A stretch of 64,000 nt of DNA from positions 23,404 through 87,403 of the forward strand of contig NIRF01000009.1 in the NCBI GenBank assembly GCA_002878375.1. Reading direction: 5' to 3'. This document shows positions 51,622-63,681 of this stretch, piece after piece. The stretch is from Dictyoglomus sp. NZ13-RE01. Lineage in GTDB: Bacteria > Dictyoglomota > Dictyoglomia > Dictyoglomales > Dictyoglomaceae. The notes beneath the pieces were generated by a model. That model was not told where the DNA came from and searched no databases. It saw only the letters and a program-made list of their open reading frames with translations. Position numbers and translations under genes: made by a program. Numbering within the stretch: the stretch's first letter is position 1; every line of letters starts with the position of its first letter.

Positions 51622-52626
51622 ATGAATAAGTGGATCAATAGAATTTATGAAAACTATCCCAAAAGATTTTCTTTCCCAATTCTTACATATCCTATTTTAA
51701 AAATCCTTGGTTATAATGTGGCTCAAATGCTTACAGATTCAGAGATACATTATCTTTGTTTAATGAAGATAATGGAGAAGTTTGATGTGTATGGAGTTGC
51801 AACTGCAATGGACCTTTCTGTAGAGGCGGAAGAATTCGGATGTAGTATAGATTTTGAAGAGGAAGAGGTACCAAAGGTTAAAAAACCATTAATTAGTAGT
51901 TTAGAAGATATAAAATACATTAAGGTTTCTGAAGTTGGCAGAAAAAGAACTAAAATTGTTCTTGAAACCTTAGAAAGGGTTTTAAAAGAAAATCCAAGAA
52001 TTCCTGTTTTTGGAAGCATGATAGGTCCCTTTTCTTTATCCATAAGGTTATATGATATTAATGAAATAATGGTAAACCTTATTGAAGAGCCAGAAAAAGT
52101 CCACGAACTTCTTGAAAAAACTTTTGAGTTTTTACTCTCATATGGAAAAGAGATGAAGAGGTTGGGAGCAAAAGGAGTATTGATAGCAGAACCGGCAGCA
52201 GGTCTTTTATCTCCTAAGTTTTGTGATGAGTTTTCTTCAAGCTATATTAAAAGAATAACTGATAATTTGCAGGATGAACATTTTATTGTAATACTTCATA
52301 ATTGTGGAAATACTCAGAAACTTGTAGATTCTATGGTATCTACAGGTAGTAAAATACTTCATTTTGGAAATGCGGTAGATTTGAAAAAGGATATAATAGG
52401 AAAGGTTCCTGAAAATATTATTGTTATGGGCAATTTAGATCCTGTTAATGTATTTATGAAAGGAGAAGTAAAAGAGATTTATAATAAAACTATTAATCTC
52501 TTAGAAGAATTGAAGGATTATAAAAATTTTGTGATATCTTCAGGTTGTGATATTCCTTATAGAACTCCTTTAGAAAATATTGAGGCTTTCTTCTCTGCAG
52601 TCAAAGATTACAATGAAAAATTATAA
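51622..52626 (+). CDS. Uroporphyrinogen decarboxylase-family methyltransferase (MtaA-like)
   Basis: The 334-residue protein has the UroD fold outline: AMDLSVEAEEFGCSIDF, PVFGSMIGPFSLSIRL, VLIAEPAAGLLSPKF, VILHNCGNTQKLVDSM and NLDPVNVFMKG. The HxCGN motif matches the zinc-ligand region of MtaA/MtbA-type corrinoid methyltransferases, not heme-pathway HemE. I start at ATG 51622 behind AAGGGGG. It overlaps a RACo-like activator gene, supporting a role in corrinoid-dependent methyl transfer. The corrinoid protein itself is not in the window. Confidence 0.75.
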   Translation: MNKWINRIYENYPKRFSFPILTYPILKILGYNVAQMLTDSEIHYLCLMKIMEKFDVYGVATAMDLSVEAEEFGCSIDFEEEEVPKVKKPLISSLEDIKYIKVSEVGRKRTKIVLETLERVLKENPRIPVFGSMIGPFSLSIRLYDINEIMVNLIEEPEKVHELLEKTFEFLLSYGKEMKRLGAKGVLIAEPAAGLLSPKFCDEFSSSYIKRITDNLQDEHFIVILHNCGNTQKLVDSMVSTGSKILHFGNAVDLKKDIIGKVPENIIVMGNLDPVNVFMKGEVKEIYNKTINLLEELKDYKNFVISSGCDIPYRTPLENIEAFFSAVKDYNEKL

Positions 52627-54328
52627 AGTATTTTATAAGGATAAAGTGTTTATAAGTGATGAGAGAAATTTATTAAAAATCTTTCAAAAAGAGAAAGTTA
52701 AAATTTCTGCGCCCTGCGGAGGGAAAGGTTTATGTGGTAAGTGCAAAGTAAAGATAGAGAAAGGTAATGTTTCTCCTCTTACAGAAGTAGAAAAATCCTT
52801 TTTAAGAGAGTATGAGATAAAAAATAATGTGCGTCTTGCATGTCAGGTTTTTATAGAGGATGAAGTTTATGTTGCCCCTTTAGAGGATGAGAGAAATATA
52901 AATATCCTTACTAATTTTTTATTGGAAGCTTATTATCCTATTAACCCTGAGGTTAAGGTTAAAGCTTTTAAATTAGAAAAGCCTGATCTTACTAATCAAA
53001 CTTCTTATCATGATAGACTTCTTTCTTACTTTGATAATAAATACAAAATTGCTAATATCTTTTTGATAAGAAAGATTCCTGATTATTTTAAAAATAATAA
53101 TTTTTTAGGGAACGTCATAGTTTATAAGGATGAGATCATTGATATAAGAGAAGAAAGCTTTAATGATCCTTTGGGGCTTGCCATAGATCTTGGCACAACC
53201 ACTATTGTTATGAAAATATTAAGTTTATCTAATGGGAGAGAGATCTGGAATACCTCCTTTAGAAATCCCTTGAATGTTTTTGGGGCGGATGTTATTTCCC
53301 TTATTGGGTATACTATGGAGAATGAGAGAGGAATAGATACACTAAATTATACTCTTGTTTCTGAGATTAAGGAGAGACTCAAAAACTTTCAGAGATTATC
53401 GGATATATATGAGATTGCTTTATCTGGAAATCCTACTATGACACACATTTTCATTGGTGTAAATCCAGAATCCATATCTTTTTCTCCTTACATTCCTGTG
53501 TTTACATCTTCTCTAACCTTTGATGCCCTTTCTCTTAATTTTCATAATATAAATCCTTTTTCTAAAATATATACCTTCCCTCTTATATCTGGATATGTTG
53601 GGGGAGATATTTTGGCTGGTATATTGGCTATTCAGCTTTGGAGGGAGGATGGAAATGTTATTTTTATAGATATGGGAACAAATGGGGAGATTGTTTTAAA
53701 AAGTGGTGATATTATTTATTCTTGCGCTACTGCATGTGGACCTGCTTTTGAAGGGGGAAATATTAGTATGGGAATGAATGCAGAAGAGGGAGCTATTGAT
53801 CATGTTTGGGTTGATGAAGGAAAGTTACGGTTTAGTACTATAGGTGAAAGTAGGGAAAGGGGAATGTGTGGGACAGGATTAATAGACGTGGTAGCAAAAG
53901 GCTTGGAACTTGGGCTTATTGATAATACAGGAAAAATCAAAGGCGGAGAAATAGAGCTTGGAAATGTGAAGATTTTGCAAAAGGATATTAGAGAATTTCA
54001 GTTGGCAAAGTCCGCTATAAGGTCTGGTATTGAAATATTATTAAGGGAGGCAGGTATAAAAGTAGAAGATGTGGATAAGATTTTTCTTGCAGGTGCCTTT
54101 GGGAGCTTTATAAATATTGAGAATACCATTAAGGTGGGTTTAATCCCTAAGATAGAAAGGAGAAAGGTAATTCCAGTTGGAAATTCATCCTTAAAGGGAG
54201 CAGAACTTGTACTTTTAAATAAGCATTATAAAAAAATTGCAGAACTCTTATCTAAAAGGGTTAAATATACTGAGCTTTCATCTCGTAAAGACTTTCAGGA
54301 CCTCTTTGTAGAGTTCATGTATTTTTAG
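52613..54328 (+). CDS. RACo-like ferredoxin/ASKHA corrinoid reductive activator
   Basis: The 571-residue protein has an N-terminal [2Fe-2S] domain (APCGGKGLCGKCKVKI, later Cys in RLACQVF), a linker, and an ASKHA-type ATPase domain (GLAIDLGTTTIVMKI near residue 190, FIDMGTNGEIVLKSG, IFLAGAFGSFI). This DUF4445 architecture is that of activators that use ATP to reduce inactive Co(II) corrinoid proteins. The start ATG 52613 lies inside the end of the UroD-like gene, so the two are coupled. Confidence 0.82.
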   Translation: MKNYKVFYKDKVFISDERNLLKIFQKEKVKISAPCGGKGLCGKCKVKIEKGNVSPLTEVEKSFLREYEIKNNVRLACQVFIEDEVYVAPLEDERNINILTNFLLEAYYPINPEVKVKAFKLEKPDLTNQTSYHDRLLSYFDNKYKIANIFLIRKIPDYFKNNNFLGNVIVYKDEIIDIREESFNDPLGLAIDLGTTTIVMKILSLSNGREIWNTSFRNPLNVFGADVISLIGYTMENERGIDTLNYTLVSEIKERLKNFQRLSDIYEIALSGNPTMTHIFIGVNPESISFSPYIPVFTSSLTFDALSLNFHNINPFSKIYTFPLISGYVGGDILAGILAIQLWREDGNVIFIDMGTNGEIVLKSGDIIYSCATACGPAFEGGNISMGMNAEEGAIDHVWVDEGKLRFSTIGESRERGMCGTGLIDVVAKGLELGLIDNTGKIKGGEIELGNVKILQKDIREFQLAKSAIRSGIEILLREAGIKVEDVDKIFLAGAFGSFINIENTIKVGLIPKIERRKVIPVGNSSLKGAELVLLNKHYKKIAELLSKRVKYTELSSRKDFQDLFVEFMYF

Positions 54329-54343
54329 AAAACATAGATTTTA

Positions 54344-55942
54344 AGTTTAATATACTCGAAAGGAGTCTCCATCTTCTGTAAGATAGAGATGAATTGCGAT
54401 TGATAAATAATTTGTTTTAGTATACAATAGACCTGGTGATAATTATGAAGTTTGATACTAATAAACATTATATAGAAGAGATGTAATAGATGATAAAATT
54501 TGAAAACTCTGATTAAGTGGAATCACGAGAAAGACTATATTCATGTTCTATTCAAGGCAACTCCTACAACGCCACTTTCTAAGTTCATAAAAGCTAAAAA
54601 TCAAGCAAAAGCTTTGGAAGGAATATTTTTAGTCAAGAAGTTATTGTCTTATCACAAGTGGTGGTGCTTCAGCTGAAGGAGTAAAAAAAGGAAATGTTGA
54701 AAGCATATAAGTATTGTATATGTCCGAACAAAGACCAAATAGAGTTTTTTGAAAAGACCTTTGGTTGTTGCAGATTTGTATGGAACATGATGCTGGAAGA
54801 AAAGCTTGAAGCATTAAGACGGGATAGGAAAATTCCAAGGATAACTCCAGCAAAGTACAAAAGGCAGTATCCTTTTTTAAAAGAAGTTGATAGTCTTGCT
54901 CTTGCAAATGTTCAGCTTCAACAAGAGAAAGCATTTAAGGATCATTTCAATAATCCGAAACATTTTAGCCCTCCGAAGTTCAAGAGGAAGAAAGATGAAC
55001 AGTCATACACGACAAACAATCAGAAAACCAAAAGTGGAAGTGAGACAATCAGGGTAGATTTTGAAAAAGGGCTTTTATATTTACCGAAGATAAAAAGTGC
55101 AATAAAAGCGGAATTTCACAGGAGGTTTGAAGGCAGAATAAAATCAGCAACAGTTGTTAAAACAAAAGCAGGCAGGTATTATGTGAGCATACTTGTAGAT
55201 GTACAGGACCCGAGGAATAAAATTAAAGAACCACAGAATTTTATTTGTGGGATAGATTTAGGGTTGAAAAGTTTTGCAACAGTTGTGAATGATTCAGAGT
55301 GTTTGAAGATTGAATACCCAAGATATCTAATCAAAGCTGAAAAGAAACTGAAAAGGTTACAGAGACAGCTTGCGAGGAAGAAGGAAGGTTCTAAGAATTG
55401 GAAGAAAGCAAGAGAAAGGCTTGCAAAAGAGCATGAATATGTAAAAAATACAAGAGAAGATTTTATGCACAAGATATCGAAAGCCATCATAGACGAGAAT
55501 CAAGTCGTGGTGGTTGAGAGCTTGAATGTAAATGGTTTATCAAGGACAAAGCTTTCGAAGTATGTTCTGGATAGCAGTTTTGCAAGGTTTATAGATTTTC
55601 TAAGGTACAAGGCAGAGTGGTATGGAAGGGAATTAATAGAAGCAGATAGGACATTTCCATCGTCAAAAATGTGCAGTAAATGTGGATACATTTATAAAGA
55701 GCTGAAATTAAGAGATAGAGTATGGAAATGTCCTGAATGTGGAGAAGTTCATGACAGGGACGAGAACGCAGGAAAGAACTTAAGAGACTATGGATATAGA
55801 TGTATAAGAAGTAGTAGGGTGGGGACCACCCGAATTTACGCCTGTGGAGATTGGACCTCTACTGCCATGGATAAAACCATGGTGGCAAGTCTGGCCGATG
55901 AATCAGGAAGCCTACACCTGTTCAAGGTGGATGGTAGTTCAC
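54344..55942 (+). mobile_element. IS200/IS605-type element 2 (broken tnpA plus TnpB)
   Basis: Limits are approximate. The left region has GGAGTCTCCATCTTCTGTAA with a small hairpin (ATCTT/AAGAT). The right end carries CTACACCTGTTCAAGGTGG followed by GTAGTTCAC at 55934-55942, which I take as the element's end. The sequence after it, beginning ATCCATATAAAAGG, belongs to a dehydrogenase gene and would be the guide portion of the element's RNA. Confidence 0.7.
54444..54711 (+). pseudogene. tnpA (Y1 transposase) pseudogene of element 2
   Basis: The start MKFDTNKHYIEEM, stop, matches the tnpA opening MKLDTNxH. A later frame has KTLIKWNHEKDYIHVLFKA and TPTTPLSKFIKAK, the HUH-type segment with the second His kept. 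A third frame has SRSYCLITSGGASAEGVKK, the C-terminal end. Frameshifts and deletions break it several times, so this transposase is dead. Confidence 0.72.
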
Positions 55943-56895
55943 ATCCATATAAAAGGGTTTTGAAGGAGGAGGAGTTAATAAACCTTATTAAGGATGTAGA
56001 TGGGATAATAGTAGGAATAGATCCCATAACAGAGAAGGTTTTGGAGAAGGCGGAAAGACTAAAGGTTATATCTAAGTATGGAGTTGGAGTTGATAACATA
56101 GATCTTGAAACTGCCAAAAAGATGGGAATTATAGTTACAAATACACCAGGTGCAAATAGTAATGCTGTTGCAGAGCTCACATTAGGACTCATTTTTTGTG
56201 TACTTAGAAATATTCATGTATCCGATAGGAAGGCAAGGGAAGGTTTTTGGGGAAGGTTTGTGGGATATGAGCTTTATGGAAAAACTCTGGGAATTATAGG
56301 AACGGGAAGTATAGGGAAGAGATTAGTAAGTCTTTTAAAGGGGTTCAATTTGAATATTCTTTGTTATGATATTTATCCAGATTACTCATGGGCAGAAAGG
56401 GAAAATGTGAAATATGTAAGTATGGAGGAGCTTTTGAAAGGCTCTGATATTATTTCTATTCATGTACCATTAACAAAGGATACCCACCATTTAATATCTA
56501 AGAAGGAAATTAGTCTTATGAAGAATTCTGCCATAATAATTAATACCTCAAGAGGTGGAATTATTGATGAGAATGCTCTTTATGAGGCTTTAAGAGATAA
56601 AAGGATTTTGGGAGCAGGGCTTGATGTTTTTGAAAAAGAGCCTCCTGAAAACTCTCCTCTTCTTTCTTTGGATAATGTTGTTGTTACCACCCATATAGGG
56701 GCTCATACAAAGGAGGCAATAGAGAATATGGCAAGTATAGCTACTGAAAATCTAATTTTAGCTTTAAAAAGGGAAAAGCCTAAATTTATTGTTTTAGAGA
56801 GCATTGAAAAGGATGGTAGAATAGAAATTAAAAAATTTTTTGAAGACCTGGCGCCTAATCATGGATATATCAAAAGAAAAGGAGAGAATAGTTAA
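54694..56895 (+). CDS. tnpB: TnpB read in frame into a 2-hydroxyacid dehydrogenase
   Basis: The 733-codon frame begins with a canonical TnpB (about residues 1-416): RuvC-I Asp188 (CGIDLGLKSFA), RuvC-II Glu275 (VVVESLNVNG), zinc ribbon CSKCGYIY...CPECGEVH, and RuvC-III Asp356 (DRDENAGKNL). No stop codon occurs at the element's right end, so the frame runs on through about 316 residues of a D-2-hydroxyacid dehydrogenase. Most likely the insertion removed the dehydrogenase start and the fusion is accidental. A fused protein could still be made. The TnpB part looks catalytically complete. Confidence 0.8.
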   Translation: MLKAYKYCICPNKDQIEFFEKTFGCCRFVWNMMLEEKLEALRRDRKIPRITPAKYKRQYPFLKEVDSLALANVQLQQEKAFKDHFNNPKHFSPPKFKRKKDEQSYTTNNQKTKSGSETIRVDFEKGLLYLPKIKSAIKAEFHRRFEGRIKSATVVKTKAGRYYVSILVDVQDPRNKIKEPQNFICGIDLGLKSFATVVNDSECLKIEYPRYLIKAEKKLKRLQRQLARKKEGSKNWKKARERLAKEHEYVKNTREDFMHKISKAIIDENQVVVVESLNVNGLSRTKLSKYVLDSSFARFIDFLRYKAEWYGRELIEADRTFPSSKMCSKCGYIYKELKLRDRVWKCPECGEVHDRDENAGKNLRDYGYRCIRSSRVGTTRIYACGDWTSTAMDKTMVASLADESGSLHLFKVDGSSHPYKRVLKEEELINLIKDVDGIIVGIDPITEKVLEKAERLKVISKYGVGVDNIDLETAKKMGIIVTNTPGANSNAVAELTLGLIFCVLRNIHVSDRKAREGFWGRFVGYELYGKTLGIIGTGSIGKRLVSLLKGFNLNILCYDIYPDYSWAERENVKYVSMEELLKGSDIISIHVPLTKDTHHLISKKEISLMKNSAIIINTSRGGIIDENALYEALRDKRILGAGLDVFEKEPPENSPLLSLDNVVVTTHIGAHTKEAIENMASIATENLILALKREKPKFIVLESIEKDGRIEIKKFFEDLAPNHGYIKRKGENS
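55943..56895 (+). pseudogene. D-2-hydroxyacid (3-phosphoglycerate-type) dehydrogenase, 5'-truncated
   Basis: The frame has ELINLIKDVDGIIVGIDPIT, the NAD motif LGIIGTGSIGKRLVSLL, catalytic Arg in NTSRGGIIDE, Glu in DVFEKEPPE and His in THIGAHTKEA, all in order. The first 30 or so residues of a normal protein are missing: the element's right end stands there, and only a few bases separate the element's left end from the RACo-like gene. The missing 5' part was therefore deleted. Without the fused TnpB start there is no obvious initiation codon. Confidence 0.78.
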
Positions 56896-57605
56896 TTTTT
56901 TAAGGGAAAAGTTGAAAGAGGAAGGAAAAGAGGGGTATGTTGTAGGAGTAAGCGGGGGAATTGATTCCTGTGTTGTATCTTATCTTCTTCGGGAGGCTGT
57001 AGGAAAAGAGAGAGTTTTTGCCCTTATAATGCCTGAGATGGATTCTGAGCCATCTTCTAAAAAGGATGCATTACTTGTTGTAGAAACCCTTGGAATTCCT
57101 TATAAAATTATCTCTCTAACAAAGGCTTTATGGGTATTAGGAGTATATAAAACTATACCTTTGTGGCTTCTTTTGTTTAGACCTTTAAAGAGGAGAGCAG
57201 TTAGATATTTATATAGAGAATATAGTAAAATTTTAGGAAAACCCATATTTTTTGCTTTAAAGGAGAAAATAAATATAAAATTAAACTGGTTTTATGAAGG
57301 TATTGCCTATCATAGAATAAAACACAGAATAAGAATGGCTCTTTTATAATTTTATGCAGAGAGGATGAATTATTTAGTTTGAAAAGCCACCCTCTCTAGA
57401 CCTTTTGCCAGGAATTACGGACGAATTCTCCATAGGTATAGATTATAATACTTTAGATAAAATGCTTATGATGTTTGAAGAGGGGAAGTTGCCATCTGAG
57501 CTAAAGGAATTTGATGAAAAATTATTGAATCTCGTATATGAACATTATAAATGGGTTAAAAAAGAAAAAAATAAGCCCCTTTCTTTAGAAAGGATTAAGG
57601 AATAA
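56861..57605 (+). pseudogene. NAD synthetase (nadE) pseudogene
   Basis: From ATG 56861 the frame reads MDISKEKERIVNFLREKL and VVGVSGGIDSCVVSYLL, the ATP pyrophosphatase motif, then continues to RIKHRIRMALL and a TAA at 57347-57349. The same frame goes on FYAERMNYLV and stops again. The frame then shifts to KPPSLDLLPGITDEFSIGID and the family's C-terminus, ending at 57605. About 45 codons (the GTGNKSE to IPEEI stretch) are missing. The gene has a nonsense codon, an internal deletion and a frame change, so it cannot make a working enzyme. Confidence 0.8.
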
Positions 57606-57772: not shown

Positions 57773-58186
57773 TTAGGTAAGGTCTTTTAGAATAATATTC
57801 ACAATCTTTTCTACTTCATCCTCACTAAAATCCAAAGTAGGAATCTTTTTAATTCCTAATTCTGTTAAAGTGTAATCAAAATCAATTTTTATACCATTCT
57901 TTTCCATAATCTTTGTTACACATTTATTAGCACATCCATTTATAACTATAACTCTTCTTGCCTTCTTGCCTACATTTATATGGGGCTCCGAACCTGCGGC
58001 AACAGCACTGGTACAACACATACGGGCAGGTCCACTCATATTTGTTAGTCTAACTCCTACTTCATGCCCAATTTGTCCAACACTGGCAGCCCCATCACAT
58101 ACAAAAATAATATCTAACTTTTCTGGTTCCTTTGTACAAACAGGAAGTAAATTTGCTCCTTCTTTAGGAGTAACTTCTTCACTCAT
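57773..58186 (-). CDS. DGC-domain putative zinc-binding protein
   Basis: The 137-residue protein has the family stretch IIFVCDGAASVGQIGHEVG, then ARMCCTSAVAAGSEPH and VINGCANKCVTKIMEK. The conserved DG and paired Cys define the DGC family, proposed to bind zinc but not functionally settled. It is the last gene of the leftward cluster that begins with the NifX-like gene. An AAGGAGG site precedes the start. Confidence 0.72.
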   Translation of the reverse strand: MSEEVTPKEGANLLPVCTKEPEKLDIIFVCDGAASVGQIGHEVGVRLTNMSGPARMCCTSAVAAGSEPHINVGKKARRVIVINGCANKCVTKIMEKNGIKIDFDYTLTELGIKKIPTLDFSEDEVEKIVNIILKDLT

Positions 58187-58234
58187 TTTAAAAACCTCCT
58201 TAAAAGATAAGGGGAAGAAACCTCCCCCTAAATT

Positions 58235-58588
58235 TTATGAATTCTTTATAAGCTCTCTTATAACTGAAAGTGCTTGCTCTGTATTCATGTTGCGAATATC
58301 TACCCCATAATGTTTTGTTTTATCAAATCCTGCCTTTTCGAAGGCATCCCTAAACATTTTTACCTGCATTTTGGGATCGCATCCTGCTACATATAACTTC
58401 TCAATTTTTTCTCCATCCTTTGCAAGAATACTTAAGAAGTTCTCTCCGTCATCAGCACAAAGCTGTGGATGTAAAGCTACAAAATCTACTAATCCCTCTC
58501 TCCTGATGGTATTTAAAATCTCAAATATGTTCATTCCTTGGAAAGATGGACAAGTCCCTTGACATACACATAATAGTAGTCCTTTCAT
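58235..58588 (-). CDS. HdrA-like Cys-rich protein, fragment-size
   Basis: This 117-residue protein opens MKGLLLCVCQGTCPSFQGMN, a CxCxGTC motif. It has LCADDGENFL and KLYVAGCDPKMQVKMFRDAFEKAGF, like the N-terminal region of heterodisulfide reductase subunit A (VAACSPR...FR). It may bind an iron-sulfur cluster or relay thiols. Alone it is far shorter than HdrA. Its start touches the ferredoxin stop, so the pair is coupled. Confidence 0.6.
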   Translation of the reverse strand: MKGLLLCVCQGTCPSFQGMNIFEILNTIRREGLVDFVALHPQLCADDGENFLSILAKDGEKIEKLYVAGCDPKMQVKMFRDAFEKAGFDKTKHYGVDIRNMNTEQALSVIRELIKNS

Positions 58589-58824
58589 TATTTTTCACCT
58601 CCATCTGCTGCTAACTCCATCTTTTTATCTCCAAAGTAGCTAATTGCTCCTACTGGACAAGCACCCTTTAGACATCCCTTACAAAAATCAACACATTCTT
58701 CAGGATGAGCTACAAATGGTTTTCCATCTTTTACCTCGTAAACTCCATGAGGACAAAATTCTACGCAGGAGAGACAGGATATACATTTCTCATAGTCTAT
58801 AATTGGATACCAATGTTTTGACAT
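58588..58824 (-). CDS. Two-cluster [4Fe-4S] ferredoxin-like protein
   Basis: The 78-residue protein has CISCLSCVEFCP and, in the second half, CVDFCKGCLKGACPVGAI, giving eight Cys in two groups typical of a dicluster ferredoxin. I start at ATG 58824 behind GGAGGAG in preference to the in-frame codon at 58845. It should pass electrons to or from the adjoining HdrA-like protein. A gap of 111 bases separates it from arsR upstream. Confidence 0.78.
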   Translation of the reverse strand: MSKHWYPIIDYEKCISCLSCVEFCPHGVYEVKDGKPFVAHPEECVDFCKGCLKGACPVGAISYFGDKKMELAADGGEK

Positions 58825-58935
58825 CTCTTTTCTCCTCCTTTGCATTAAAATTTGTTTATTCCTTGGAACTTTTTATATATATTTTTATAAGGCTTAAAAT
58901 TTAATAACCATGCCACCAGCAAGGACAAATTTTCT

Positions 58936-59334
58936 TCATAAAAGATCCCTCTTTTCTATAATTTTTTCCCATTCATGGGATTTCAAAATAACACATCTAT
59001 TTTCCTTCCTAAATCTTGTCCTCAGATTCAATAATTCCAAATTTTCTTTTATATATTCATCAGGTATACTTTCAAGAGCCTTAAAAAGATAACTCTTGAA
59101 CTCATTGTCAGGCTCTTTAATAGAATAAAGCACCCCTTTCCCAACTCTTCTTTCCTTTACAATTTCCTCCCTTTTTAATTCTGAAAGATATTTTGAGACA
59201 TTATAATGATTCTCCCCCAAAGCATCTGCAATCTCACACACATAATATTCCCCTTTGCTTTTTAAAAGGAGAAGCAAAACTTTTAATCTCTTTTCTTCAG
59301 ATAGCACTTTAAATATCATTGCGTATCTATTCAT
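58936..59334 (-). CDS. ArsR-family transcriptional repressor
   Basis: The 132-residue winged-helix protein has the ArsR/SmtB core: FKVLSEEKRLKVLLLLL, YVCEIADALGENHYNVSKYLSELKREEIV and a wing RVGKGVLYSI. A Cys sits at the start of the recognition unit (VCEIAD), where many family members bind metal. Another Cys follows near the end (NRCVILK). I start at ATG 59334; a GTG at 59340 is an alternative. The operator at 59332-59354 covers this start and its -10 region, so it probably represses itself. The effector is not known. Confidence 0.8.
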   Translation of the reverse strand: MNRYAMIFKVLSEEKRLKVLLLLLKSKGEYYVCEIADALGENHYNVSKYLSELKREEIVKERRVGKGVLYSIKEPDNEFKSYLFKALESIPDEYIKENLELLNLRTRFRKENRCVILKSHEWEKIIEKRDLL

Positions 59335-59354
59335 ATGCACATATTAGCACATAA
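59332..59354 (-). promoter_or_regulatory. Operator of the arsR gene
   Basis: Read leftward the sequence is TTATGTGCTAATATGTGCAT followed by ATG. Its TATGTGCTAA half matches the operator at 59871-59893. A TTGACT box lies upstream (59368-59363) and TATGTG could serve as -10, with 18-19 bases between. The start codon follows within a few bases, so the mRNA may be leaderless and repressor binding would block it. Confidence 0.6.
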
Positions 59355-59364
59355 AATTAAAAAG

Positions 59365-59457
59365 TCAAGCGTTATCTTTTGTTTTCTTCTTATCTTTTAA
59401 GGCAGAAAGTAATAAAAAGGAAAAAGCAAAGATTAGGTAGATATCTCCAACATCCAT
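59365..59457 (-). CDS. 30-residue membrane peptide of the metal-redox cluster
   Basis: The small frame from ATG 59457 reads MDVGDIYLIFAFSFLLLSAL and then KDKKKTKDNA, stop at 59365. It has one hydrophobic helix and a charged Lys-rich tail. GGTGG lies five bases before the ATG. It lies 21 bases after the NifX-like gene and before arsR in the same direction. I do not recognise it. It was found by reading the gap, which is otherwise unusually long for this cluster. Confidence 0.5.
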   Translation of the reverse strand: MDVGDIYLIFAFSFLLLSALKDKKKTKDNA

Positions 59458-59478
59458 TCTATCCACCTTTTAAAAAAT

Positions 59479-59847
59479 TTAATCAGTAAGCTCAGGAAAA
59501 TCTTTTAAGTTGCCAGAGAGGTATAGCTCTAAGGCTCTTTTTACATCAGTCTCTTCTGTAACGATAACTTGAATACCTGCGGATCTTAAATCGTCATATA
59601 ATCTTCTTCCCATCCCATGGGAGATAACCACATTGCAGTCTCTTAAGGCGTTTATAATATCTCCATGGGTATCATAGTGACCATGACCAGAATGATGGAG
59701 TCCCCGAGCATGTCCTGTAAATGTATTTGGTCTATACTCCTCTCCAAGAACCTTTCCATCTTCAATCTCAAAAATTACAAATCCTCTTGTTCTCCCAAAG
59801 TGGGAGGAAATGGTCCTTCCATCATCAGACGCAATTGCTATTTTCAT
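59479..59847 (-). CDS. NifX/NifB-C-type dinitrogenase cofactor-like protein
   Basis: The 122-residue protein begins MKIAIASDDGRTISSHFGRT, the opening of the NifX/NafY/NifB C-terminal family. It continues with GFVIFEIEDGKVLGEEYRPN, a His-rich loop (HARGLHHSGHGHYDTHGD), and ISHGMGRRLYDDLRSAGIQV. Family members bind Fe-Mo or other metal-sulfur cofactors, and many live outside nitrogen fixation. The His-rich loop suggests metal binding. I start at ATG 59847 behind AAAGGAGG, not the long upstream frame. It is the first gene of the cluster and faces the NRAMP gene. Confidence 0.78.
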   Translation of the reverse strand: MKIAIASDDGRTISSHFGRTRGFVIFEIEDGKVLGEEYRPNTFTGHARGLHHSGHGHYDTHGDIINALRDCNVVISHGMGRRLYDDLRSAGIQVIVTEETDVKRALELYLSGNLKDFPELTD

Positions 59848-59870
59848 TTTTATCAACCTCCTTTTATTTA

Positions 59871-59919
59871 CATATGTGCTAACTGCACATATGATATAAT
59901 GACAAAAAATTTTTGTCAA
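59871..59919 (-). promoter_or_regulatory. Promoter and operator of the metal-redox cluster
   Basis: Read leftward, TTGACA (59919-59914), 17 bases and TATCAT (59896-59891) form a strong promoter. The inverted repeat CATATGTGC-TAACT-GCACATATG (59871-59893) overlaps the -10 box. It shares TATGTGCTAA with the site at arsR, so the ArsR protein probably controls both. The NRAMP gene starts about 44 bases beyond on the other strand and could be affected too. Confidence 0.72.
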
Positions 59920-59962
59920 TATACAATTTTTATTTTTTTTATATATAATCAATTAGTAATCT

Positions 59963-61219
59963 ATGAAGAGGGTTAAAGATTTATTTTCAAAACATAAGCC
60001 AAGGCTTGAAGCTTTAGAAATCCTTAAGTACATTGGTCCTGGGTTTCTTGTAACAGTTGGCTTTATAGATCCAGGTAATTGGGCATCTAATATCTCCGCA
60101 GGATCAATGTATGGGTACAAGCTTTTGTGGATGGTTACTCTTTCTACAATAATGCTTATTATTCTTCAGCATAATTCTGCCCATCTTGGGATTGTAACGG
60201 GTCTTTGTCTTGCAGAATCTATAAATAAATATTTCCCTAAGAATATTTCTCGATTTGTCCTTTTAACTGCATATCTTGCTACTGTTTCTACGGCACTTGC
60301 GGAAATACTTGGTGCTGCAATTGGCTTGAAAATGCTTTTTAACATACCTATAAAAATTGCTTCTGTGATTGTAAGTATTTTTATTGTATATCTTGTTTTG
60401 ACAAATTCTTACAAAAAAATTGAGCGCATTATTATTGGATTTGTAAGTCTTATTGGTATTTCATTTATTATAGAGCTTTTCCTTGTGGGAATTAATGTAA
60501 AAGAGGTAATTTTAGGATGGTTTGTGCCAAGGGTTCCAAAAGGTTCTGAGCTTATTATCATGAGTGTTCTTGGTGCTGTAGTTATGCCTCACAATTTATT
60601 CTTGCATTCTGAGGTTATTCAAAGTAGGCAATTTAATCTTGAGGATGAAAAGGTAATTCAAAAGCAACTTTCTTATGAATTCCTTGACACAATATTCTCC
60701 ATGTTTGTAGGATTTCTTATAAATTCTTCAATGATTATAGTGGCAAGTCAAGTTTTTTATAAATTTAACATACAGGTGACAGAGCTTGAATCAGCTCAGG
60801 CAACTTTAAAACCTCTCTTAGGAAATTTTGCCTCTTTAGTTTTTGCTATTGCACTTCTTTTTTCTGGAATTTCTTCCTCTATTACTGCAGCAATTTCTTC
60901 TGGAATTGTTGTGGCAGGTTATTCCAATGAGCCTTTTGACACAAAGGACAACCACTCAAGGTTAGGAATTATTTCATCTTTATTCTTTGCAACCCTAATA
61001 ATTTTCTTTTTAAAGGACACCTTCAAAGGGCTTATTATAAGTCAGGCAATTTTGAGCATACAGCTTCCTTTTACAATTCTTGCCCAGATCACATTGACAT
61101 CAAGTAAGAAGGTAATGGGAAAATATCACAACAAGGGTATAGAAAAGCTACTTTTAATTTTAACCTTTATAATTGTCCTTGTATTAAATATTTTGCTGTT
61201 AATAAATCTAAAGGGGTAG
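59963..61219 (+). CDS. NRAMP-family Mn2+/Fe2+ transporter
   Basis: The 418-residue membrane protein has the metal-binding DPGN motif in helix 1 (Asp36, Asn39 in VGFIDPGNWAS) and MPHN in helix 6 (Met208 in VVMPHNLFLHS), both canonical for proton-coupled Mn2+ or Fe2+ uptake. About eleven helices are visible. The start ATG has no clear ribosome site and an AT-rich upstream. It diverges from the NifX-like gene, whose promoter operator lies between them. Confidence 0.87.
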   Translation: MKRVKDLFSKHKPRLEALEILKYIGPGFLVTVGFIDPGNWASNISAGSMYGYKLLWMVTLSTIMLIILQHNSAHLGIVTGLCLAESINKYFPKNISRFVLLTAYLATVSTALAEILGAAIGLKMLFNIPIKIASVIVSIFIVYLVLTNSYKKIERIIIGFVSLIGISFIIELFLVGINVKEVILGWFVPRVPKGSELIIMSVLGAVVMPHNLFLHSEVIQSRQFNLEDEKVIQKQLSYEFLDTIFSMFVGFLINSSMIIVASQVFYKFNIQVTELESAQATLKPLLGNFASLVFAIALLFSGISSSITAAISSGIVVAGYSNEPFDTKDNHSRLGIISSLFFATLIIFFLKDTFKGLIISQAILSIQLPFTILAQITLTSSKKVMGKYHNKGIEKLLLILTFIIVLVLNILLLINLKG

Positions 61220-62732: not shown

Positions 62733-62912
62733 ATGGAAGGATTAGGTCCTGTAGGATATTGTATATGTCCTAAATGTGGTTATAAAAAGGAGCATGTTCC
62801 TGGAGTTCCATGTAGAGAGGAGAGATGTCCAAAATGTGGTTCGGTTTTAGTAAGGGAAGGATCAGAACATCATAAGTTGATTGAGGAAAGGAGAAGAAAA
62901 AATGAAGGGTAA
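62733..62912 (+). CDS. Small zinc-ribbon-like protein upstream of mrp
   Basis: The 59-residue protein MEGLGPVGYCICPKCGYKKE has two Cys groups (CICPKCG and CREERCPKCG), a zinc ribbon or metal site, and a charged C-terminal helix (EGSEHHKLIEERRRKNEG). GGGAGG precedes its ATG. Its end overlaps the start of mrp by 11 bases, which couples translation. Small Cys-rich partners of Mrp are common in anaerobes, but their function is not known. Confidence 0.72.
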   Translation: MEGLGPVGYCICPKCGYKKEHVPGVPCREERCPKCGSVLVREGSEHHKLIEERRRKNEG

Positions 62913-63681
62913 TATTAAACATAAGATAATAGTTATGAGTGGAAAGGGAGGGGTAGGAAAAAGCACTTTTTCTGCAAATCTTGCAATTGCTTTTGCATTG
63001 AAAGGTTACGAGAATAAAGTAGGGATTTTGGATGCGGATATACATGGTTATAGCATTCCTAAACTTTTTAATATGAATTCAGAGAAAATGTATCAGTATG
63101 ATGAGGGGATTATACCTGCAAGTGGTCCCTTAGGAATTAAAGTAGCATCTGCTGGTTTTTTAGTGAAGGATGAGGACTCTCCAATAATTTGGAGAGGACC
63201 TTTAAAAGCACAGTTAATAAGACAATTTATATCGGATATTGCATGGGGGGATTTGGAATTTTTGATCATTGACCTTCCCCCAGGAACTGGTGACGAGCCT
63301 CTAAGTATTGCACAAGAACTACCAAATCCTGATGGAGCTATTATTGTTACTATTCCCTCAAAAGTCTCTGAAAAAGTAGTAAGAAGGTCTGTAAATTTTG
63401 CAAAAGCCCTTAATTTGCCAGTAATTGGAATTGTAGAAAATATGAGTGGCTTTGTATGCCCATACTGTGGAAAAAGGGTGGATATTTTTGGTAGTGGAGG
63501 GGGCGAAAGTATAGCAAGAGATTTAGGAGTACCATTCTTGGGAAAAATTCCTTTAGATGTAAGAATAAGTGAGAGTGGGGATGTAGGACATCCCTTCCTT
63601 CTTGAAGATAAAGATTCTGAAATTTCAAAAAGTTTTTTGGATATTGTAGAGAAAATTGAAAATTTTGTAAGAGAGAAATAG
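62902..63681 (+). CDS. mrp: Mrp/NBP35-family iron-sulfur carrier ATPase
   Basis: The 259-residue P-loop protein has the deviant Walker A SGKGGVGKST (13-22), GILDADIHGYSIP, IDLPPGTGDEP, and the CPYC pair (Cys186, Cys189) that binds a bridging [4Fe-4S] cluster in the dimer. It loads clusters onto apoproteins. I start at ATG 62902 behind AAAGGAG instead of the earlier TTG. Its position behind a Cys-rich small gene suggests a joint cluster or metal role. Confidence 0.88.
   Translation: MKGNIKHKIIVMSGKGGVGKSTFSANLAIAFALKGYENKVGILDADIHGYSIPKLFNMNSEKMYQYDEGIIPASGPLGIKVASAGFLVKDEDSPIIWRGPLKAQLIRQFISDIAWGDLEFLIIDLPPGTGDEPLSIAQELPNPDGAIIVTIPSKVSEKVVRRSVNFAKALNLPVIGIVENMSGFVCPYCGKRVDIFGSGGGESIARDLGVPFLGKIPLDVRISESGDVGHPFLLEDKDSEISKSFLDIVEKIENFVREK

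Follow-up and report, generated by a model that had tools for sequence, protein, structure and literature searches.

The window analysed here is a stretch of 64,000 nucleotides from the heat-loving anaerobe Dictyoglomus sp. NZ13-RE01 (contig NIRF01000009.1; host genome G000, 1.93 Mb). It contains a leftward gene cluster whose core is formed by an arsR-type repressor gene, a ferredoxin gene, a gene for a 117-residue cysteine protein, and a gene for a DGC-domain protein. The cysteine protein, which we call HDRL, is by profile and fold a free-standing N-terminal domain of HdrA, the A subunit of the CoB-CoM heterodisulfide reductase, and is encoded next to a ferredoxin in most of its loci. We propose that this operon acts as a redox module against arsenic-type thiol stress, repressed by ArsR and supplied with electrons by the ferredoxin, and that a NifX-like partner of Mrp has been recruited to it; we give this proposal about an even chance of being correct. 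Most descriptions of operons for arsenic and thiol stress come from aerobes, where glutaredoxin or thioredoxin supplies the electrons.

No Pfam family matched HDRL above its cut-off, and NCBIfam gave sub-threshold matches to HdrA and HdrA2. A search of the PDB with the HDRL profile retrieved HdrA chains at 1.4e-5, and the AlphaFold (AF2) model of the protein (pLDDT 93) returned HdrA for all of its top seven Foldseek matches. Alignment of the model to HdrA with VIA-align gave Z values of 12–14 across 114 of the 117 residues, whereas the next unrelated rows reached 9 at most. The kinship implied by the earlier label of HdrA-like cysteine protein, given in a sequence-only reading of this DNA, is therefore borne out by profile and fold. 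Five cysteines are invariant in the alignment of 71 sequences, which has a family consensus of about 117–119 columns: C7, C9, C44 and C70 align onto the cysteines of the HdrA N-terminal domain, and C13 is specific to HDRL. HdrA obtains one ligand, Cys197, from its partner subunit (PMC9012536). Since the partner thioredoxin-reductase domain is missing from HDRL, C13 may complete the cluster site.

The two proteins thus share a fold and four cysteines, but HDRL lacks the FAD/thioredoxin-reductase and ferredoxin domains by which membership of HdrA would be recognized, carries its own invariant cysteine, and is accompanied by a separately encoded ferredoxin, with no HdrB or HdrC recognized nearby. 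To our knowledge, the HdrA N-terminal domain is otherwise found only within the electron-bifurcating enzyme. No description of HDRL or of the ferredoxin-HDRL pair was found in the literature searched, and a plasmid search for HDRL gave no match. Tentatively, and as a suggestion that we consider unlikely, HDRL and its ferredoxin may constitute an undescribed class of ferredoxin-dependent reductases, in which a free HdrA N-terminal domain with a self-contained [4Fe-4S] cluster (through Cys13) cleaves disulfides or acts directly on arsenic- or antimony-thiol species, and which has spread in anaerobic bacteria and archaea as part of metalloid defence. The conserved pair would offer anaerobes a direct low-potential route into metalloid or thiol defence. 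The nameless HDRL family also gains a well-defined context that can be tested in hosts amenable to culture (Geobacter, Thermoanaerobacter, Thermococcus).

A genome scan yielded 80 HDRL loci, which together with the Dictyoglomus relatives, one further genome and the window make 84 mapped neighbourhoods; the identities of the main neighbour families were checked with Pfam. The HDRL tree covers at least 14 phyla, archaea included, and looks laterally mixed, with the window protein placed inside Dictyoglomaceae. In 77 of the 84 loci a ferredoxin gene lies no more than 5 kb from HDRL, and in 69 it is on the same strand and within 100 bp. Over the same distance of 5 kb an ArsR gene was found in 54 loci, a Thioredoxin_3 protein in 27, CcdA/DsbD in 26, an ArsP permease in 24, a NifX-like gene in 21, ACR3 in 17 and DGC in 16. 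At least one of ACR3, ArsC, ArsD, ArsM and ArsA occurs within this distance in 24 loci, a number that rises to 44 when ArsP-like permeases are included. Gene densities per 100 kb drop between 0–3 kb and 5–8 kb from HDRL, from 19.3 to 1.3 for ferredoxin, from 11.9 to 2.0 for ArsR, from 4.8 to 0.3 for NifX and from 5.7 to 0.3 for ArsP. The link between NifX and HDRL is not due to chance, because the densities fall sharply past 5 kb and PF02579 has just 1–5 copies per genome.

ArsR, ferredoxin, HDRL, a NifX-like protein and DGC also occur together in Ornatilinea (L058) and Cryosericum (L069), and Caldisericum (L031) has ArsR-ferredoxin-HDRL-DGC in the order of the window. The set that the sequence-only reading had assembled recurs in other anaerobes to this extent, whereas its NRAMP metal importer is absent from the other 83 neighbourhoods. 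The core is arsR-ferredoxin-HDRL-DGC, and the earlier grouping needs to be redrawn around it.

In the window, the leftward order from 59847 is the nifX-like gene, a 30-residue open reading frame (ORF), arsR, the 2[4Fe-4S] ferredoxin gene, the HDRL gene and the DGC-domain gene. Rightward from 59963, the NRAMP gene is followed by glnA, a small zinc-ribbon gene and the gene of an Mrp/NBP35 ATPase. The features are as follows.

57773–58186, minus strand: DGC-domain cysteine protein, final gene of the operon (PF08859, 1.5e-28, 99.4 bits against a gathering score of 27).
58235–58588, minus strand: HDRL, stand-alone HdrA N-terminal domain protein of 117 residues (alignment, AF2 model, fold matches).
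58588–58824, minus strand, ORF extending to 58845: 2[4Fe-4S] ferredoxin starting MSKHWYP (Fer4 dicluster, above cut-off).
58936–59334, minus strand, ORF extending to 59340: ArsR/SmtB-type repressor starting MNRYAM (HTH_5, 3e-8; NF033788, 62.2 bits, cut-off 55).
59335–59352, minus strand: candidate autoregulatory operator ATGTGCTAATATGTGCAT over the arsR -10 element.
59341–59368, minus strand: arsR promoter, TTGACT-16-TAATAT (promoter scan).
59365–59457, minus strand: the 30-residue ORF, an ArsP-type half-permease relic that corresponds to the first transmembrane helix, from similarity to the half-permease of L062.
59479–59847, minus strand: NifX/ORP-like protein with a His-rich loop (PF02579, 65.7 bits, cut-off 26.3).
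59871–59893, no strand assigned: perfect inverted repeat CATATGTGC-TAACT-GCACATATG, candidate ArsR operator of nifX.
59891–59919, minus strand: nifX promoter, TTGACA-17-TATCAT (promoter scan, 11 of 12 matches).
59963–61219, plus strand: NRAMP importer, a neighbour and probably no component (PF01566, 370 bits; NF037982, 133 bits; both above cut-off).
62733–62912, plus strand: small zinc-ribbon protein, ancestral NifX partner (79–80% identical gene before Mrp-NifX in the closed Dictyoglomus genomes G003 and G004).
62881–63681, plus strand: Mrp/NBP35 iron-sulfur carrier ATPase, ancestral NifX partner (PF10609, 321 bits).

Every ORF named in the sequence-only reading was found where it had been placed, and the NifX-like, ArsR, Fer4, DGC and NRAMP family matches all exceed their cut-offs. 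Rfam and tRNA scans of the window gave no matches.

The best NCBIfam match of the ferredoxin is HgcB, the ferredoxin of mercury methylation (NF040864), but the score of 40.3 bits is far under the family cut-off of 99, and no HgcA was seen in the neighbourhood; membership of HgcAB was therefore rejected. In the ferredoxins that adjoin HDRL in L023 (9135–9350), L042 and L047, aspartate takes the place of the second cysteine ligand of the first cluster motif, as in some 3Fe/4Fe ferredoxins; the motif reads CIGDFVC in L023 and CIGDLTC in L042. The AF2 model of the DGC protein displays a generic alpha/beta fold for which the fold searches found no specific relative. Its top match was an uncharacterised Wolinella protein (Z 9.2), and the similarity at Z 6–8 to flavodoxins, phosphosugar isomerases, hydrogenase maturation proteases and pI258 ArsC-like folds may reflect merely a common arrangement. 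A terminator-like GC hairpin is located between the HDRL and DGC genes (58208–58230, minus strand), and possibly attenuates DGC expression.

The control region shared by nifX and NRAMP, as had been noticed from the letters alone, is real; it measures 115 bp and holds a perfect 9-bp inverted repeat, of which 0.01 occurrences would be expected in the window. Touched by the nifX promoter, this repeat is the sole match in the genome at up to 3 mismatches. At the arsR promoter, the -10 element sits within ATGTGCTAATATGTGCAT, itself the sole exact match in the genome, and the arsR transcript is probably leaderless. This site resembles the nifX repeat, although part of the similarity may be the -10 element itself, and in L019, L020, L021 and L031 a similar element is found ahead of arsR or of the operon to which it belongs. 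Judged by sequence, both sites are good candidates for ArsR operators, and with the inverted repeat at the nifX promoter and a related site at the arsR promoter, ArsR probably controls both.

The same 115-bp region bears on the sequence-only reading in its full form, in which NRAMP imports a transition metal (Mn, Fe or Mo) that is then sensed, carried by NifX and handled by redox chemistry. The divergent arrangement around a perfect repeat agrees with that scheme, as does the observation that sampled-family genomes with HDRL mostly have NRAMP too, while the same-genus genomes G001 and G002 are devoid of both. However, NRAMP adjoins HDRL in the window alone. It is found about 6.5 kb from the core behind unrelated genes in G003 and about 82 kb away in G004. 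The upstream region of the G003 gene is a CRISPR array that lacks the inverted repeat, and the window repeat precedes the NRAMP start by about 70 bp and does not lie on its -10 element. NRAMP was thus rejected as a component, its membership of the system is not upheld, and we consider the import scheme very improbable. The CRISPR array, with GTAGCGTACCTATAAGGGATTGAAAC repeats, stands immediately before the G003 gene (L020, 18000–19000).

The His-rich loop attributed to the NifX-like protein is present as HARGLHHSGHGHYDTHG and is kept in the Dictyoglomus orthologue of G004 as HARGLHHTGHHHYDSHA. The protein belongs to PF02579. It scores 32.1 bits against a cut-off of 112 in the NifX family of nitrogen fixation (TIGR02663), and membership of the nitrogenase system was rejected on this ground. 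Scores of 42 and 341 bits lie below the cut-off of 450 for MrpORP (NF041136), the genes being separate. In G003 and G004 the core (ArsR-(DGC)-ferredoxin-HDRL), NifX and NRAMP occupy separate places, and the NifX orthologues, 67–70% identical, are located directly after Mrp in zinc-ribbon-Mrp-NifX operons. A broken NifX remnant persists downstream of Mrp in G001, where the locus L129 (contig C69, 3000–12000) aligns in a row genes for an ArsC-like protein, a peroxiredoxin, PadR, three ArsP-type half-permeases, Mrp and the NifX remnant; this locus is probably close to the ancestral NifX setting. Because the window keeps zinc-ribbon-Mrp (62733–63681) without NifX, the nifX gene probably moved. Unlike MrpORP, the window NifX is unfused, stands away from Mrp, has a His-rich loop and is preceded by an operator-like repeat. 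Two further PF02579-like types were observed near HDRL: a small subfamily with a GAGLGAW motif and no HFGR directly downstream of it (L036, L058, L062, L064, L070, L101, L104 and others), and a third type (FASKNHLGLNS) that precedes the ferredoxin in Thermoanaerobacter and Cryosericum.

The 30-residue ORF behind nifX had been taken for a membrane peptide. This was a misreading, and its candidacy as a new small protein was rejected: it shares 59% identity with the N-terminus, comprising the first helix, of the half-permease encoded straight after NifX in L062, and none of 5000 shuffles reached the score. The half-permeases of L062, L064 and L067 match PF03773 (ArsP_1 type), and a still shorter permease relic, MDVGDIYLI, is found in G003. 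The match between the relic and the permease that follows NifX in L062 suggests that nifX and the permease arrived or stayed together and that the permease then decayed. An alternative is a decaying patchwork, in which the core may work but rearrangement brought in nifX and the permease relic, and no coordinated function unites the whole. The displacement of NifX from Mrp and the reduction of the permease to 30 residues fit this idea, as do the sequences directly beside the cluster, where a TnpB-type ORF is joined to a dehydrogenase and nadE is broken. However, NifX, ferredoxin, HDRL, DGC and ArsR are all intact, and nifX possesses its own strong promoter and an operator-like repeat resembling the arsR site; a patchwork of this kind is improbable.

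A redox module for arsenic-type thiol stress, the proposal made above, would operate as follows. ArsR would bind a thiol-loving metalloid or metal, most likely As(III) or Sb(III), and leave both operators, which would open nifX and arsR-ferredoxin-HDRL-DGC. The two-cluster ferredoxin would draw low-potential electrons from the cellular ferredoxin pool and hand them to HDRL. HDRL is predicted to carry a [4Fe-4S] cluster on its HdrA cysteines, with Cys13 replacing the ligand that HdrA borrows from the thioredoxin-reductase domain of its partner subunit. It may reduce a protein disulfide or a metalloid-thiol adduct; in the window this disulfide or adduct might sit on DGC, and in the relatives on small thioredoxins. 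NifX, originally an Mrp-linked carrier of iron-sulfur or metal clusters, would have come under the same repressor together with the ArsP half-permease, which has since decayed, and NRAMP would be a mere neighbour.

The earlier idea of a regulated metal- or thiol-type redox cluster with a ferredoxin survives in this scheme, whereas the transition-metal pathway fed by NRAMP does not. The transition metal was replaced by arsenic-type thiol stress because the neighbours in the relatives are ArsP, ACR3, ArsC, ArsM, ArsD, CcdA and Thioredoxin_3, and it is from these loci that the arsenic connection is inferred. CcdA, thioredoxin and redox-active disulfide protein 2 are known redox genes of ars operons (PMC2963123). 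Those operons resemble many HDRL loci, which have these very ArsR-linked redox helpers as neighbours together with ArsP, ACR3 or ArsC; the paper contains no ferredoxin, however, and HDRL is not among its named determinants, and the window differs in having ArsR-ferredoxin-HDRL-DGC without a pump, CcdA or thioredoxin. A parallel in an anaerobe is Fusibacter sp. 3D3, in which a ferredoxin and a redox-active disulfide protein are found beside arsC-1 (PMC9751042), but that study does not describe HDRL and proposes a route in which ArsC reduces arsenate.

Several observations weigh against arsenic as the effector. The CxC arsenite-sensor motif occurs in 50 of the 66 ArsRs near HDRL genes, but the window ArsR reads YVCEIADAL and lacks the first cysteine of the motif. 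The cluster includes an ArsR-family repressor (NF033788), yet it has no gene for arsenite or organoarsenical efflux or for arsenate reductase (ArsB was not searched), just the ArsP half-permease relic. Neither ACR3 nor an intact ArsP gene was found in the searched host genome, which raises the possibility that the effector in this organism is not arsenic; an ArsC-like gene is present on another contig. No named ars gene or ArsP-like permease lies within 5 kb of HDRL in 40 of the 84 loci. The evidence is, moreover, mostly comparative; the loci are related, phylogenetically clumped and unevenly sampled, and for several families the HMMs used to recognise them had been built from these loci themselves.

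The main rival is repair of iron-sulfur clusters or sulfur, given that Suf, HesB and Mrp genes are among the neighbours too. Ferredoxin, HDRL, DGC and NifX would then rebuild or carry iron-sulfur clusters or sulfane sulfur after damage from metals or oxidants; the metalloid would be the trigger alone, and nothing would act on it directly. SufB/D-like genes are neighbours of HDRL in 9 loci, SufC-type ABC genes are so in 15, SufC-SufB directly precede ArsR-ferredoxin-HDRL-DGC in L031, and an IscA/HesB-type gene (PF01521) lies upstream of arsR in L021. The ancestral tie of NifX to Mrp points in the same direction, and MrpORP functions in iron-sulfur biogenesis (PMC6345978). Most loci, however, have no Suf, Isc or Mrp genes near HDRL, where pumps, permeases and thioredoxins are commoner, and we regard repair as a real possibility, if not a likely one.

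Other features of the window lie beyond the DGC gene. The TnpB-type sequence (OrfB_IS605, Cas12f1-like TNB) is in frame with a D-2-hydroxyacid dehydrogenase in one ORF of 733 residues (54694–56895, plus strand), apparently the result of an IS605-type element inserting into a serA-like gene. The NAD synthase is present in two pieces (56861–57605, plus strand) that cover profile positions 3–85 and 183–235, apparently a decayed nadE adjoining the cluster. Further upstream, at 52580–54328 on the plus strand, a gene encodes a RACo-type ASKHA reductive activator of corrinoid proteins with an N-terminal 2Fe-2S domain.

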